From Mycolicibacterium malmesburyense (GTDB lineage: Bacteria; Actinomycetota; Actinomycetes; Mycobacteriales; Mycobacteriaceae): 5,441 nt of DNA. This document shows positions 1-5,441 of this stretch, piece by piece. The notes under the pieces were generated by a model. It made no database searches. It was not told the origin of the DNA and worked only from the letters and a program-made list of their open reading frames with translations. Within the stretch, counting starts at the first letter, position 1, and every line of letters starts with the position of its first letter. The position numbers and the translations under genes were made by a program. The DNA lies in the NCBI RefSeq assembly GCF_001050015.1, contig NZ_CVTB01000025.1, positions 1-5,441 of the forward strand. Reading direction: 5' to 3'.

Positions 1-55
1 CAAAACGTCGGCTACAGTAACTTTTCCCAGCCTCAATCTCATCTCTCTTTTTGCG
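1..55. repeat. Terminal direct repeat, left copy
   Basis: Identical over 55 bases to 5387..5441. It lies in coding sequence of A and B, and removing one copy gives exactly 5386 bases and restores both reading frames. It marks a circular molecule opened at an arbitrary point, not a biological repeat. Confidence 0.97.
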
Positions 56-235
56 TTCTGCTTCAATATCTGGTTGAACGGCGTCGCGTCGTAACCCAGC
101 TTGGTAAGTTGGATTAAGCACTCCGTGGACAGATTTGTCATTGTGAGCATTTTCATCCCGAAGTTGCGGCTCATTCTGATTCTGAACAGCTTCTTGGGAA
201 GTAGCGACAGCTTGGTTTTTAGTGAGTTGTTCCAT
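1..235 (-). CDS. B: Internal scaffolding protein B, N-terminal 78 codons (split by contig ends)
   Basis: B is the internal scaffolding protein. It binds the inner face of F pentamers, promotes 12S particle formation and incorporation of H, and is lost from the mature virion. The gene lies wholly inside A in a different frame. ATG at 235..233 follows AGGAG at 247..243 with seven bases between. The product begins MEQLTKNQAVATSQE and is polar and rich in Q, N, D and E, typical of a flexible scaffold. At base 1 the frame is in mid-codon (235 bases = 78 codons plus one base), and it continues at 5386..5259 to give the expected 120 residues. Promoter PB (447..418) lies upstream. Confidence 0.97.
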   Translation of the reverse strand, partial: MEQLTKNQAVATSQEAVQNQNEPQLRDENAHNDKSVHGVLNPTYQAGLRRDAVQPDIEAERKKRDEIEAGKSYCSRRF

Positions 236-813
236 TCTTTAGCTCCTAGACCTTTAGCAGCAAGGTCCATATCTGACTTTTTGTTAACGTATTTAGCCAC
301 ATAGAAACCAACAGCCATATAACTGGTAGCTTTAAGCGGCTCACCTTTAGCATCAACAGGCCACAACCAACCAGAACGTGAAAAAGCGTCCTGCGTGTAG
401 CGAACTGCGATGGGCATACTGTAACCATAAGGCCACGTATTTTGCAAGCTATTTAACTGGCGGCGATTGCGTACCCGACGACCAAAATTAGGGTCAACGC
501 TACCTGTAGGAAGTGTCCGCATAAAGTGCACCGCATGGAAATGAAGACGGCCATTAGCTGTACCATACTCAGGCACACAAAAATACTGATAGCAGTCGGC
601 GTGTGAATCATTAGCCTTGCGACCCTCGGCAGCAAGAACCATACGACCAATATCACGAAAATAGTCACGCAAAGCATTGGGATTATCATAAAACGCCTCT
701 AATCGGTCGTCAGCCAACGTGAGAGTGTCAAAAACGATAAACCAACCATCAGCATGAGCCTGTCGCATTGCATTCATCAAACGCTGAATAGCAAAGCCTC
801 TACGCGATTTCAT
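1..813 (-). CDS. A*: Protein A* (internal-start form of A), N-terminal part
   Basis: A* is translated in the same frame as A from the internal ATG at 813..811, residue 173 of A (start MKSRRGF). With the continuation at 5386..5174 it is 341 residues. It keeps the HUH motif and both catalytic tyrosines, so it is still a single-strand endonuclease. In infected cells A* is known to inhibit host DNA replication and is dispensable or nearly so for growth. The start is supported by GGAGG at 826..822, eight bases upstream, which lies inside the perfect palindrome GGAGGCCTCC (817..826). Which protein is made cannot be told from sequence alone; the assignment rests on knowledge of phiX174. Confidence 0.9.
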   Translation of the reverse strand, partial: MKSRRGFAIQRLMNAMRQAHADGWFIVFDTLTLADDRLEAFYDNPNALRDYFRDIGRMVLAAEGRKANDSHADCYQYFCVPEYGTANGRLHFHAVHFMRTLPTGSVDPNFGRRVRNRRQLNSLQNTWPYGYSMPIAVRYTQDAFSRSGWLWPVDAKGEPLKATSYMAVGFYVAKYVNKKSDMDLAAKGLGAKEWNNSLKTKLSLLPKKLFRIRMSRNFGMKMLTMTNLSTECLIQLTKLGYDATPFNQILKQNAKREMRLRLGKVTVADVL

Positions 814-1329
814 AGTGGAGGCCTCCAGCAATCTTGAACACTCATCCTTAATACCTTTCTTTTTGGGGTAATTATACTCATCGCGAATATCCTTAAGAGG
901 GCGTTCAGCAGCCAGCTTGCGGCAAAACTGCGTAACCGTCTTCTCGTTCTCTAAAAACCATTTTTCGTCCCCTTCGGGGCGGTGGTCTATAGTGTTATTA
1001 ATATCAAGTTGGGGGAGCACATTGTAGCATTGTGCCAATTCATCCATTAACTTCTCAGTAACAGATACAAACTCATCACGAACGTCAGAAGCAGCCTTAT
1101 GGCCGTCAACATACATATCACCATTATCGAACTCAACGCCCTGCATACGAAAAGACAGAATCTCTTCCAAGAGCTTGATGCGGTTATCCATCTGCTTATG
1201 GAAGCCAAGCATTGGGGATTGAGAAAGAGTAGAAATGCCACAAGCCTCAATAGCAGGTTTAAGAGCCTCGATACGCTCAAAGTCAAAATAATCAGCGTGA
1301 CATTCAGAAGGGTAATAAGAACGAACCAT
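1..1329 (-). CDS. A: Replication protein A, N-terminal 443 residues (split by contig ends)
   Basis: Rolling-circle replication initiator of phiX174, an HUH-family endonuclease. It nicks the virion strand of the replicative form at the origin, stays covalently joined to the 5' end, and later cuts and religates unit-length circles with the host Rep helicase. The frame is open from ATG at 1329 to base 1, 443 codons, and continues at 5386..5174 for the last 70, giving the expected 513 residues. The metal-binding HUH motif reads H263-F-H265 within GRLHFHAVHF. The two catalytic tyrosines are Y343 and Y347 in YVAKYVNKK. The start is supported by GGAGG at 1341..1337, seven bases upstream. The gene contains the origin (982..1011), the internal start of A* (813), promoter PB and the start of B (235) in another frame. 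The apparent truncation is only where a circular genome was cut open. Confidence 0.98.
   Translation of the reverse strand, partial: MVRSYYPSECHADYFDFERIEALKPAIEACGISTLSQSPMLGFHKQMDNRIKLLEEILSFRMQGVEFDNGDMYVDGHKAASDVRDEFVSVTEKLMDELAQCYNVLPQLDINNTIDHRPEGDEKWFLENEKTVTQFCRKLAAERPLKDIRDEYNYPKKKGIKDECSRLLEASTMKSRRGFAIQRLMNAMRQAHADGWFIVFDTLTLADDRLEAFYDNPNALRDYFRDIGRMVLAAEGRKANDSHADCYQYFCVPEYGTANGRLHFHAVHFMRTLPTGSVDPNFGRRVRNRRQLNSLQNTWPYGYSMPIAVRYTQDAFSRSGWLWPVDAKGEPLKATSYMAVGFYVAKYVNKKSDMDLAAKGLGAKEWNNSLKTKLSLLPKKLFRIRMSRNFGMKMLTMTNLSTECLIQLTKLGYDATPFNQILKQNAKREMRLRLGKVTVADVL
418..447 (-). promoter_or_regulatory. Promoter PB for gene B and downstream genes
   Basis: TTGCAA at 447..442 and TACAGT at 423..418, 18 bases apart, each match four of six consensus bases. 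The site lies inside gene A about 180 bases upstream of the B start. A promoter upstream of B is known in phiX174, and these are the best boxes I see. Confidence 0.65.
982..1011 (-). other. Origin of virion-strand replication (protein A nick site)
   Basis: Positions 1011..982 on the minus strand carry the conserved 30-base microvirus origin, starting CAACTTGATATT and ending CTATAGACCAC, with an AT-rich centre. Protein A cuts after CAACTTG, between 1005 and 1004 (virion 4305/4306), leaving a 5'-ATATTA end joined to a tyrosine. The origin lies inside coding sequence of A (residues about 107-116). A short GC stem (CCCC-GAA-GGGG, 979..969) lies just beyond its end. Confidence 0.95.
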
Positions 1330-1354
1330 AAAAAAGCCTCCAAGATTTGGAGGC
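1330..1354 (-). terminator. Terminator TH, rho-independent, between H and A
   Basis: On the minus strand GCCTCC (1354..1349), a 7-base loop and GGAGGC (1341..1336) form a 6-base-pair GC-rich stem followed by six T residues (1335..1330). The next three bases are the ATG of A. GGAGG in the 3' arm is also the ribosome-binding site of A. It should stop transcripts coming from H, the last gene of the D-to-H message series. Confidence 0.9.
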
Positions 1355-1383
1355 ATGAAAACATACAATTGGGAGGGTGTCAA
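1355..1383 (-). promoter_or_regulatory. Promoter PA for genes A and A*
   Basis: TTGACA at 1383..1378 is a perfect -35 box. At 17-base spacing lies TTTCAT (1360..1355), a four-of-six -10 box. Transcription would begin near 1348, inside the loop of the following terminator hairpin. A promoter here is established for phiX174; the exact -10 choice is my reading. Confidence 0.75.
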
Positions 1384-1392
1384 TCCTGACGG

Positions 1393-2379
1393 TTATTTCC
1401 TAGACAAATTAGAGCCAATACCATCAGCTTTACCGTCTTTCCAGAAATTGTTCCAAGTATCGGCAACAGCTTTATCAATACCATGAAAAATATCAACCAC
1501 ACCAGAAGCAGCATCAGTGACGACATTAGAAATATCCTTTGCAGTAGCGCCAATATGAGAAGAGCCATACCGCTGATTCTGCGTTTGCTGATGAACTAAG
1601 TCAACCTCAGCACTAACCTTGCGAGTCATTTCTTTGATTTGGTCATTGGTAAAATACTGACCAGCCGTTTGAGCTTGAGTAAGCATTTGGCGCATAATCT
1701 CGGAAACCTGCTGTTGCTTGGAAAGATTGGTGTTTTCCATAATAGACGCAACGCGAGCAGTAGACTCCTTCTGTTGATAAGCAAGCATCTCATTTTGTGC
1801 ATATACCTGGTCTTTCGTATTCTGGCGTGAAGTCGCCGACTGAATGCCAGCAATCTCTTTTTGAGTCTCATTTTGCATCTCGGCAATCTCTTTCTGATTG
1901 TCCAGTTGCATTTTAGTAAGCTCTTTTTGATTCTCAAATCCGGCGTCAACCATACCAGCAGAGGAAGCATCAGCACCAGCACGCTCCCAAGCATTAAGCT
2001 CAGGAAATGCAGCAGCAAGATAATCACGAGTATCCTTTCCTTTATCAGCGGCAGACTTGCCACCAAGTCCAACCAAATCAAGCAACTTATCAGAAACGGC
2101 AGAAGTGCCAGCCTGCAACGTACCTTCAAGAAGTCCTTTACCAGCTTTAGCCATAGCACCAGAAACAAAACTAGGGACGGCCTCATCAGGGTTAGGAACA
2201 TTAGAGCCTTGAATGGCAGATTTAATACCAGCATCACCCATGCCTACAGTATTGTTATCGGTAGCAAGCACATCACCTTGAATGCCACCGGAGGCGGCTT
2301 TTTGACCGCCTCCAAACAATTTAGACATGGCGCCACCAGCAAGAGCAGAAGCAATACCGCCAGCAATAGCACCAAACAT
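1393..2379 (-). CDS. H: Minor spike / DNA pilot protein H
   Basis: The 328-residue pilot protein, about 10-12 copies per virion, which oligomerises into a coiled-coil tube that conducts the DNA across the cell envelope. The start is ATG at 2379, with GAGG at 2389..2386 six bases upstream. Residues 2-25 are rich in glycine, alanine and hydrophobic residues, consistent with a membrane-inserting segment. Residues 148-180 contain three tandem 11-residue repeats (consensus QKE-I/L-xxMQ), marking the start of the coiled-coil domain; Q/E/K/A-rich helix continues to about 285. The C-terminus is [10 protein letters not shown]. Length and sequence agree with phiX174 H as I know it. Promoter PA begins just before the stop codon region, in the gap to gene A. 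Confidence 0.98.
1840..1938 (-). repeat. Three tandem 11-residue (33-base) coiled-coil repeats in H
   Basis: H residues 148-158, 159-169 and 170-180 each follow the pattern xxxQKE(I/L)xxMQ, with I for M in the last. In DNA the units share the core reading CAGAAAGAG or close variants on the minus strand. An 11-residue period suits a coiled coil with little supertwist, in line with the known tube structure of the H central domain. Confidence 0.85.
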
Positions 2380-2387
2380 AAATCACC

Positions 2388-2915
2388 TCACTTAAGTGGC
2401 TGGAGACAAATAATCTCTTTAATAACCTGATTCAGCGAAACCAATCCGCGGCATTTAGTAGCGGTAAAGTTAGACCAAACCATGAAACCAACATAAACAT
2501 TATTGCCCGGCGTACGGGGAAGGACGTCAATAGTCACACAGTCCTTGACGGTATAATAACCACCATCATGGCGACCATCCAAAGGATAAACATCATAGGC
2601 AGTCGGGAGGGTAGTCGGAACCGAAGAAGACTCAAAGCGAACCAAACAGGCAAAAAATTTAGGGTCGGCATCAAAAGCAATATCAGCACCAACAGAAACA
2701 ACCTGATTAGCGGCGTTGACAGATGTATCCATCTGAATGCAATGAAGAAAACCACCATTACCAGCATTAACCGTCAAACTATCAAAATATAACGTTGACG
2801 ATGTAGCTTTAGGTGTCTGTAAAACAGGTGCCGAAGAAGCTGGAGTAACAGAAGTGAGAACCAGCTTATCAGAAAAAAAGTTTGAATTATGGCGAGAAAT
2901 AAAAGTCTGAAACAT
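2388..2915 (-). CDS. G: Major spike protein G
   Basis: The 175-residue major spike protein, which forms pentamers at the twelve vertices (60 copies) and helps bind host lipopolysaccharide. It begins [15 protein letters not shown] and ends ICLQPLK. I chose ATG at 2915 because AGGAG lies at 2927..2923, seven bases upstream. An in-frame upstream start near 2960 would translate the structured F-G region and is rejected. Three marker positions lie here: 2579 gives aspartate at residue 113 (N in the reference as I recall), 2517 is the third base of P133 (CCC), and 2499 is the third base of N139 (AAT). The stop TGA at 2390..2388 overlaps the ribosome-binding site of H, eight bases before the H start. 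Confidence 0.97.
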
Positions 2916-3025
2916 GATTAAACTCCTAAGCAGAAAACCTACCGCGCTTCGCTTGGTCAACCCCTCAGCGGCAAAAATTAAAATTTTTACCGCTTCGGCG
3001 TTATAACCTCACACTCAATCTTTTA
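2916..3025 (-). other. F-G intergenic region with hairpins: primosome assembly site / complementary-strand origin
   Basis: This 110-base non-coding stretch contains an inverted repeat, arms 2967..2977 and 2984..2994 with one internal mismatch, and further on GCGAAGC (2952..2946), a sequence known to form an unusually stable DNA mini-hairpin. AAGCG motifs occur at both sites on the virion strand. In phiX174 this region is the site where PriA starts primosome assembly for making the complementary strand after DNA entry. A transcription terminator (TF) has also been assigned near here; I cannot separate the two functions from sequence. Exact borders are inferred. Confidence 0.8.
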
Positions 3026-4309
3026 TCACGAAGTCATGATTGAATCGCGAGTGGTCGGCAGATTGCGATAAACGGTCACATTAAATTTAACCTGACTATT
3101 CCACTGCAACAACTGAACGGACTGGAAACACTGGTCATAATCATGGTGGCGAATAAGTACGCGTTCTTGCAAATCACCAGAAGGCGGTTCCTGAATGAAT
3201 GGGAAGCCTTCAAGAAGGTGATAAGCAGGAGAAACATACGAAGGCGCATAACGATACCACTGACCCTCAGCAATCTTAAACTTCTTAGACGAATCACCAG
3301 AACGGAAAACATCCTTCATAGAAATTTCACGCGGCGGCAAGTTGCCATACAAAACAGGGTCGCCAGCAATATCGGTATAAGTCAAAGCACCTTTAGCGTT
3401 AAGGTACTGAATCTCTTTAGTCGCAGTAGGCGGAAAACGAACAAGCGCAAGAGTAAACATAGTGCCATGCTCAGGAACAAAGAAACGCGGCACAGAATGT
3501 TTATAGGTCTGTTGAACACGACCAGAAAACTGGCCTAACGACGTTTGGTCAGTTCCATCAACATCATAGCCAGATGCCCAGAGATTAGAGCGCATGACAA
3601 GTAAAGGACGGTTGTCAGCGTCATAAGAGGTTTTACCTCCAAATGAAGAAATAACATCATGGTAACGCTGCATGAAGTAATCACGTTCTTGGTCAGTATG
3701 CAAATTAGCATAAGCAGCTTGCAGACCCATAATGTCAATAGATGTGGTAGAAGTCGTCATTTGGCGAGAAAGCTCAGTCTCAGGAGGAAGCGGAGCAGTC
3801 CAAATGTTTTTGAGATGGCAGCAACGGAAACCATAACGAGCATCATCTTGATTAAGCTCATTAGGGTTAGCCTCGGTACGGTCAGGCATCCACGGCGCTT
3901 TAAAATAGTTGTTATAGATATTCAAATAACCCTGAAACAAATGCTTAGGGATTTTATTGGTATCAGGGTTAATCGTGCCAAGAAAAGCGGCATGGTCAAT
4001 ATAACCAGTAGTGTTAACAGTCGGGAGAGGAGTGGCATTAACACCATCCTTCATGAACTTAATCCACTGTTCACCATAAACGTGACGATGAGGGACATAA
4101 AAAGTAAAAATGTCTACAGTAGAGTCAATAGCAAGGCCACGACGCAATGGAGAAAGACGGAGAGCGCCAACGGCGTCCATCTCGAAGGAGTCGCCAGCGA
4201 TAACCGGAGTAGTTGAAATGGTAATAAGACGACCAATCTGACCAGCAAGGAAGCCAAGATGGGAAAGGTCATGCGGCATACGCTCGGCGCCAGTTTGAAT
4301 ATTAGACAT
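3026..4309 (-). CDS. F: Major capsid protein F
   Basis: The 427-residue coat protein, 60 copies per virion, forming the T=1 shell with an eight-stranded beta-barrel and long insertion loops (family knowledge). The sequence runs MSNIQTGAERMPHDL to TTRDSIMTS, with no internal stop and the usual length. ATG at 4309 follows GAGGA at 4320..4316, six bases upstream. F binds B inside, D outside, J and the DNA at its inner surface, and G at the fivefold vertices. It is separated from J by 36 bases containing a hairpin terminator and from G by 110 bases of structured non-coding DNA. I see no difference from the phiX174 protein as I remember it. Confidence 0.98.
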   Translation of the reverse strand: MSNIQTGAERMPHDLSHLGFLAGQIGRLITISTTPVIAGDSFEMDAVGALRLSPLRRGLAIDSTVDIFTFYVPHRHVYGEQWIKFMKDGVNATPLPTVNTTGYIDHAAFLGTINPDTNKIPKHLFQGYLNIYNNYFKAPWMPDRTEANPNELNQDDARYGFRCCHLKNIWTAPLPPETELSRQMTTSTTSIDIMGLQAAYANLHTDQERDYFMQRYHDVISSFGGKTSYDADNRPLLVMRSNLWASGYDVDGTDQTSLGQFSGRVQQTYKHSVPRFFVPEHGTMFTLALVRFPPTATKEIQYLNAKGALTYTDIAGDPVLYGNLPPREISMKDVFRSGDSSKKFKIAEGQWYRYAPSYVSPAYHLLEGFPFIQEPPSGDLQERVLIRHHDYDQCFQSVQLLQWNSQVKFNVTVYRNLPTTRDSIMTS

Positions 4310-4326
4310 AATTTATCCTCAAGTAA

Positions 4327-4340
4327 GGGGCCGAAGCCCC
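4327..4340 (-). terminator. Terminator TJ hairpin between J and F
   Basis: GGGGC (4340..4336), TTCG, GCCCC (4331..4327) on the minus strand make a five-pair GC stem capped by the very stable UUCG tetraloop, followed by TTACTT. The T-run is imperfect, which fits partial termination with read-through to F. It sits five bases after the stop of J. Confidence 0.8.
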
Positions 4341-4345
4341 TGCAA

Positions 4346-4462
4346 TTAAAATTGTTGACCACCTACATACCAAAGACGAGCGCCTTTACGCTTGCCTTTA
4401 GTACCTCGCAACGGCTGCGGACGACCAGGGCGAGCGCCAGAACGTTTTTTACCTTTAGACAT
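4346..4462 (-). CDS. J: DNA-binding core protein J
   Basis: A 38-residue highly basic protein, MSKGKKRSGARPGRP at the start and WYVGGQQF at the end. It contains about a dozen lysines and arginines and almost no acidic residues. J binds the single-stranded genome during packaging, is carried into the procapsid with it, and tethers the DNA to the inner surface of F through its aromatic C-terminus. The ATG at 4462 overlaps the TAA of D by one base, and AAGGAG at 4475..4470 gives a good ribosome-binding site. The stop TAA is at 4348..4346, five bases before the hairpin attributed to terminator TJ. Confidence 0.97.
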   Translation of the reverse strand: MSKGKKRSGARPGRPQPLRGTKGKRKGARLWYVGGQQF

Positions 4463-4920
4463 TACATCACTCCTTCTGCACGTAATTTTTGACGCACGTT
4501 TTCTTCTGCGTCAGTAAGAACGTCAGTGTTTCCTGCGCGTACACGCAAGGTAAACGCGAACAATTCAGCGGCTTTAACCGGACGCTCGACGCCATTAATA
4601 ATGTTTTCCGTAAATTCAGCGCCTTCCATGATGAGACAGGCCGTTTGAATGTTGACGGGATGAACATAATAAGCAATGACGGCAGCAATAAACTCAACAG
4701 GAGCAGGAAAGCGAGGGTATCCTACAAAGTCCAGCGTACCATAAACGCAAGCCTCAACGCAGCGACGAGCACGAGAGCGGTCAGTAGCAATCCAAACTTT
4801 GTTACTCGTCAGAAAATCGAAATCATCTTCGGTTAAATCCAAAACGGCAGAAGCCTGAATGAGCTTAATAGAGGCCAAAGCGGTCTGGAAACGTACGGAT
4901 TGTTCAGTAACTTGACTCAT
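4462..4920 (-). CDS. D: External scaffolding protein D
   Basis: The 152-residue external scaffolding protein, [12 protein letters not shown] to LRAEGVM. It is mostly helical; 240 copies coat the procapsid, organise the 12S particles and leave when the virion matures. The ATG at 4920 overlaps the stop of C. The ribosome-binding site is weak (AGG in AGGTAAGAAATC), although D is among the most abundant proteins, which fits heavy transcription from promoter PD just upstream. Gene E is nested in the +1 frame. Two differences I recall from the reference genome, at 4723 (codon 66, GTA) and 4477 (codon 148, GCA), are both silent in D while changing E. The stop TAA overlaps the ATG of J (TAATG, one base). 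Confidence 0.97.
   Translation of the reverse strand: MSQVTEQSVRFQTALASIKLIQASAVLDLTEDDFDFLTSNKVWIATDRSRARRCVEACVYGTLDFVGYPRFPAPVEFIAAVIAYYVHPVNIQTACLIMEGAEFTENIINGVERPVKAAELFAFTLRVRAGNTDVLTDAEENVRQKLRAEGVM
4467..4742 (-). CDS. E: Lysis protein E, carrying an amber stop at codon 7 (am3 allele)
   Basis: E is a 91-residue membrane protein that lyses the host by inhibiting MraY, the enzyme making lipid I for peptidoglycan; it also needs the host isomerase SlyD. It lies wholly inside D in the +1 frame. ATG at 4742..4740 is preceded by GAGG at 4755..4752. The first codons read M V R W T L, then TAG at 4724..4722 where wild type has TGG (W7). Beyond it the frame is intact to TGA at 4469..4467, with the hydrophobic membrane segment at residues 10-29 (leucine-rich, including P21) and a basic C-terminal half. 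Full E is therefore made only in an amber-suppressing host; elsewhere a 6-residue peptide results and cells should not lyse. A second difference from the reference as I recall it gives Q instead of R at residue 89. Confidence 0.95.
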
Positions 4921-5177
4921 GATTTCTTACCTATTAGTGGTTGAACAGCATCGGACTCAGATAGTAATCCACGCTCTTTTAAAATGTCAACAAGAGAATC
5001 TCTACCATGAACAAAATGTGACTCATATCTAAACCAGTCCTTGACGAACGTGCCAAGCATATTAAGCCACTTCTCCTCATCCAACGCGTCAGTTTTTGAC
5101 AGAATCGTTAGTTGATGGCGAAAGGTCGCAAAGTAAGAGCTTCTCGAGCTGCGCAAGGATAGGTCGAATTTTCTCAT
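4917..5177 (-). CDS. C: Protein C, switch from replication to DNA packaging
   Basis: An 86-residue protein, [16 protein letters not shown] to LIGKKS. In phiX174, C binds the replication complex, blocks reinitiation of double-strand synthesis and favours synthesis and packaging of single strands into procapsids. I chose ATG at 5177, which overlaps the TGA of A (ATGA). An upstream in-frame GTG at 5195 would add six residues (MDCWRK), but the known product starts at 5177. The upstream sequence GGCGGAAA gives only a weak Shine-Dalgarno match, so coupling to A or K is plausible. The stop TGA at 4919..4917 overlaps the ATG of D, again as ATGA. The D promoter lies inside this gene. Confidence 0.95.
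4961..4990 (-). promoter_or_regulatory. Promoter PD for genes D, E, J and the structural genes
   Basis: A perfect -35 box TTGACA at 4990..4985 and TACTAT at 4966..4961 (four of six), 18 bases apart, lie inside gene C about 40 bases before D. This is the known strong promoter feeding the abundant D, J, F, G and H messages. Confidence 0.8.
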
Positions 5178-5259
5178 TTTCCGCCAGCAGTCCACTTCGA
5201 TTTAATTCGTAAACAAGCAGTAGTAATTCCTGCTTTATCAAGATAATTTTTCGACTCAT
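5089..5259 (-). CDS. K: Protein K, small non-essential burst-size protein
   Basis: A 56-residue protein from ATG at 5259..5257 to TGA at 5091..5089, starting [19 protein letters not shown]. It is leucine- and isoleucine-rich in its first half, consistent with a membrane-associated peptide, though no clear signal sequence is visible. K is not essential; published work on phiX174 links it to burst size. It spans the end of A and the beginning of C in a third frame, so bases 5177..5174 serve A, C and K together. Its start overlaps the stop of B by one base and I see no strong ribosome-binding site of its own, so translational coupling to B is likely (inference). Confidence 0.92.
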
Positions 5260-5441
5260 CAGAAATATCCGAAAGTGTTAACTTCTGCGTCATGGAAGCG
5301 ATAAAACTCTGCAGGTTGGATACGCCAATCATTTTTATCGAAGCGCGCATAAATTTGAGCAGATTTGTCGTCACAGGTTGCGCCGCCAAAACGTCGGCTA
5401 CAGTAACTTTTCCCAGCCTCAATCTCATCTCTCTTTTTGCG
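5174..5441 (-). CDS. A: Replication protein A / A*, C-terminal part (continuation across the circle)
   Basis: The last 70 residues shared by A and A* lie at 5386..5174 and end with KSKWTAGGK followed by TGA at 5176..5174. Bases 5441..5387 repeat bases 55..1, so the codons there are a second copy of the same residues. This piece joins in frame to the part that ends at base 1. It is overlapped by the C-terminal part of B up to 5259, then by K, and its stop codon overlaps the ATG of C (ATGA, 5177..5174). A separate short gene starting near 5428 is not credible, because that methionine is internal to A. Confidence 0.97.
5259..5441 (-). CDS. B: Internal scaffolding protein B, C-terminal part
   Basis: Bases 5386..5259 complete B in the frame left open at base 1, ending EVNTFGYF and TGA at 5261..5259. 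Bases 5441..5387 duplicate the left end. The aromatic C-terminal tail (W, F, Y, F, Y, F) is the part of B known to contact the capsid protein. The stop overlaps the ATG of K by one base (TGATG), a typical coupling arrangement. The whole segment is also read as protein A in another frame. Confidence 0.96.
5387..5441. repeat. Terminal direct repeat, right copy
   Basis: Second copy of bases 1..55, without mismatch. Genes A, A* and B pass through this junction, so they are whole on the circle. Confidence 0.97.

Follow-up and report, generated by a model that had tools for sequence, protein, structure and literature searches.

Genes of the phiX174 circle and the amber codon in gene E

The window (the whole stretch of DNA that was analyzed, 5,441 nucleotides) holds the full 5386-base phiX174 circle with a 55-base wrap, and its features are collected in Table 1. 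When the circle was rotated to the origin of the reference NC_001422.1, both sequences were 5386 bases long and agreed in gene order and at 5381 of 5386 bases, with differences at virion positions 587, 833, 2731, 2811, and 3133 only. A change at virion 2793, expected as a difference of the sequencing control, is not seen against NC_001422.1; one is found at 3133 instead. The window shares A at 833 and T at 2811 with S13 and with five further phiX records of laboratory origin; judging from these sequences, it is NC_001422.1 and MN385565 that seem to deviate at the two positions.

Table 1. Features of the window and their positions
Feature	Window position	Strand	Remarks
Complete phiX174 circle, genes A, A*, B, K, C, D, E, J, F, G, H	1..5441	-	A, A*, and B cross the window ends
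55-base repeat	1..55		Recurs exactly at 5387-5441: one turn of the circle, then wrap
Gene D, external scaffolding protein	4462..4920	-	Virion 390-848; 152 aa; protein unchanged
Gene E, lysis protein	4467..4742	-	Virion 568-843; stop at codon 7, rest open; R89Q relative to NC_001422.1
Amber codon TAG, gene E codon 7 (am3)	4722..4724	-	Altered base at window 4723, virion 587; reference G, here A
Virion 833 G to A	4477	-	E codon 89 CGG to CAG (R89Q); silent in D (Ala148)
Virion 2731 A to G	2579	-	G N113D
Virion 2811 C to T	2499	-	Silent in G (Asn139)
Virion 3133 C to T	2177	-	H A68V

On the minus strand, gene E starts with ATG GTA CGC TGG ACT TTG TAG (window 4742-4722). The original prediction had described an amber stop at codon 7 in place of the wild-type TGG, caused by a G-to-A change at virion 587, and alignment to NC_001422.1 confirmed both points: the reference has G and TGG, while the window has A on the minus strand (T on the plus strand) and TAG. 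The change is also silent in the overlapping gene D, as had been proposed, with codon 66 going from GTG to GTA and Val being kept. This stop is not a chance reading, because the circle is only five bases off NC_001422.1 and 10 of the 11 phiX genes tested have no internal stop, E being the one gene that has one. The statement that E is otherwise intact stood in part; its reading frame is open beyond the amber codon, but the R89Q substitution had been overlooked.

In NC_001422.1, protein E begins with MVRWTLW. A passage of PMC10868562 describes a motif in E that this stretch fits, with the am3 stop at its last residue; equating the stretch with that motif is our own reading and should be taken as putative. 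According to published work, E acts on MraY.

We accept the name am3 because of passages in three papers: a table of PMC7150816 gives position 587 of phiX174 am3 as an assay site, PMC4118848 describes phiX174 DNA purchased from NEB as am3 cs70, and PMC7904718 refers to phiX174 am3 as a reporter gene and to earlier work on a transgene with am3 and cs70. The allele assignment of the original prediction thus holds, and the comparison at 587, together with the published am3 position, supports its view of a laboratory allele rather than gene decay. Between the window and phiX174 am3 (am3 cs70), we found no difference; the two share the E amber codon at virion 587, the unchanged D protein, and an otherwise phiX174 genome.

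A free-standing contig in a bacterial assembly

The original prediction missed the setting of the window, a phiX contig standing by itself in the assembly of an unrelated bacterium. The host assembly comprises 2,649,157 bases in 70 contigs and is 99.73% complete, and the window's circle corresponds to one of these contigs (C29), which has 5386 bases, makes one phiX turn, and has no host sequence joined to it. The G+C content is 44.7% in the window versus 60.8 to 63.2% in three host stretches.

This contig lacks an end repeat, and we therefore rejected the explanation that the 55-base repeat is an assembler overlap in the project's contig; the wrap may have arisen when the window was cut, or a different version of the contig may have had it. 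Among the matches listed, phiX contigs from other species' genomes carry a 127-base end repeat in 41 of 119 cases and a 55-base one in 4 of 119. We infer that end repeats of these two lengths are assembler remnants on circular contigs, left at the word length.

A whole circular phage contig within an assembly would also be expected if a phiX-like phage or plasmid really resided in the sequenced bacterium or infected it, and similar contigs have been deposited as plasmids or soil phage. The features of the host argue against such residence. LpxC and Omp85 gave no match at E 0.001 in the 99.73% complete host genome (control searches found matches in 4 of 14 and 7 of 14 genomes), so that these two marks of the LPS-bearing outer membrane required of a phiX host are absent; the high G+C content without the two families suggests that the host is Gram-positive, a Gram type deduced from these two absences. 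As phiX attaches to LPS according to a passage of PMC10868562, infection of this bacterium by phiX is not expected. The phiX piece was likewise absent from 60 of 60 relatives, only the own genome matching among the 61 searched, and it occurred in 1 of 47 genomes of at least 90% completeness and at most 5% contamination, again the own one.

Copies in other genome projects and in named records

One genome per species was scanned for the 29 bases around 587, with A or G permitted at that position, and at least 119 stretches were recovered, a lower bound from a non-random sample in a scan that demanded exact flanks. Among the matches listed, the titles span Clostridium, Actinomadura, Flavobacterium, Methylobacterium, and Dolichospermum, and the base at 587 is A in 119 of 119, although the pattern permitted G. 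At the other four positions, the window's base was found among these matches wherever exact flanks gave a reading (833, n = 118; 2731, n = 116; 2811, n = 118; 3133, n = 117). Exact pieces of the window's circle make up 101 of the 119 matches listed; in the other 18, the best stretch has 98.6 to 100% identity and the unmatched ends reach at most 54 bases. The most diverged of the matches listed (L119) shows 75 mismatches, its stated coverage being 1.17, and two stretches (L084 and L096) belong to longer contigs.

Among the phage records, a 701-base piece around 587 matched 569, with 100% identity in 3 of the best 60; for an 81-base piece there were 564 matching records, of which 3 reached at least 99%. 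With 31-base probes at 587, the window base found 3 phage records and the reference base 140; a match needs 28 exact bases, so every match spans 587, and more diverged relatives lie outside this sample. All three phage records that carry A at 587 in these searches match the window at each of the 5386 bases. They are CP004084.1, deposited with a honeybee-gut bacterium; MT947439.1, a soil phage named "Protaetiibacter phage SSC1"; and PP417747.1, "Enterobacteria phage ST5386," an unverified record filed under Caudoviricetes. The other phage records compared, S13 included, have G at 587 in 7 of 7.

In the plasmid collection, the 81-base piece matched six records (NZ_OR345925.1, NZ_AP024892.1, NZ_AP024868.1, NZ_AP026443.1, NZ_AP028091.1, and NZ_AP024880.1), each of 5386 bases and all six identical to the window; three are from Vibrio and one each from E. 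coli, Cellulomonas, and Edwardsiella tarda. Given this identity with the am3 circle, these "complete plasmids" are probably control contamination deposited as plasmids. Counting phage (3) and plasmid (6) entries together, 9 of 9 named records having A at 587 thus agree with the window throughout the 5386 bases. The 81-base piece had no match in the complete E. coli genome collection, and the pattern scan of viral_contigs returned 0 matches.

The annotation of E varies in these records. In CP004084.1 (643-843), E is annotated from codon 26, and no E gene is listed for SSC1 and pE2022-5 (NZ_OR345925.1), the plasmid gene table being incomplete by design. The amber codon distorts the E annotation in all three.

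These copies bear on two of the alternatives. For a resident phage or plasmid, identical circles filed under Vibrio, Cellulomonas, Edwardsiella, and E. coli would be hard to explain, and so would the G at 587 in every other phage record compared; together with the host features, they make true residence extremely improbable, and we give hardly any credence to the idea that the culture of a bacterium outside the expected host range of phiX really contained am3 phage DNA. The project's base at 587 is known from one contig, which would leave room for a base-call or assembly error there or for an independent amber mutation. However, the same base recurs in 119 of the 119 contigs among the matches listed and in 9 of 9 named records, and the four further differences are likewise the same wherever they are readable; an error or a separate mutation is scarcely conceivable.

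The comparison of records also bears on cs70. With 31-base probes at 3133, the window base matched 3 phage records and the reference piece 79, 72 of them at 99% or more. Those three are the am3 records, and the base does not occur in the 7 other records compared; among the records compared, 3133 is the sole difference besides 587 that is confined to am3 records. From this distribution, the H A68V change is a candidate for cs70, a lead and not a result, and a passage of PMC7354561 indicates that other gene H changes can give cold sensitivity. The G N113D change at 2731, which the window has in common with 1 of the 7 other phage records, may be a further possible cs70 base.

PhiX sequencing control as the probable origin of the contig

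According to the above comparisons, we consider it highly probable (about 0.96) that the window is phiX174 am3 control DNA as spiked into Illumina runs, which became a circular contig of its own in a bacterial project and was not removed. The best reading is that it is neither part of the bacterium nor a natural lysis-defective phage, and its origin from spike-in reads is what we infer from the contig of phiX alone and from the same sequence in unrelated sequencing projects. The presence of the am3 allele here would then follow from the contamination.

In the control stock, the amber codon would end protein E after six residues, so that a host lacking an amber suppressor would make no working lysis protein, and both phage and replicative-form DNA would accumulate inside its cells without lysis. 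Scaffolding protein D is unchanged, because the alteration falls on the third position of a D codon, and particles could still form. This working of am3 has long been known: a host without an amber suppressor makes no E and hence does not lyse, a host with one does lyse, and D, hence assembly, is unharmed. Reads of the phiX control would subsequently have been assembled as a separate circular contig of the bacterial genome project and left in.

Contamination of this kind has been described before. In a passage of PMC4511556, more than 18,000 isolate genomes were screened and 1041 found to be PhiX contaminated, 979 of them by a single scaffold averaging 5587 bases, a pattern that the passage ascribes to the Illumina control. 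Like the window, the contaminants described there take the form of one unattached phiX contig of about 5.4 kb in an isolate assembly, and we found no difference between them and the window. In an author correction (PMC10064758), Microviridae claims were withdrawn for the same reason, PhiX control contamination.

Alternatively, the am3 phage DNA may have come from elsewhere than the run's spike-in, for example from commercial phiX174 DNA or from a phage stock in use in the same laboratory. NEB phiX174 DNA is the am3 cs70 material noted above (PMC4118848), and a passage of PMC3334598 shows such DNA in bench use and in home-made control libraries, with an Illumina library made from NEB phiX174 RF1 and the Illumina PhiX kit spiked at about 1%. 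However, this circle turned up in no fewer than 119 stretches, from genome projects across many unrelated species; a routine run additive fits such recurrence better than separate bench accidents do, and the passage of PMC4511556 puts the pattern down to the control; another source of the am3 DNA is therefore unlikely. The literature searched contained no explicit statement that the Illumina PhiX kit is am3, and the proposed link between the two draws on their common sequence and on what is stated for the NEB DNA.

The window is almost certainly ordinary contamination, with nothing new biologically. Its use lies in recognition: the am3 base and its four companion differences are a quick mark that separates PhiX control contigs from natural phiX-like phage, and this mark is present in several public "phage" and "plasmid" records.
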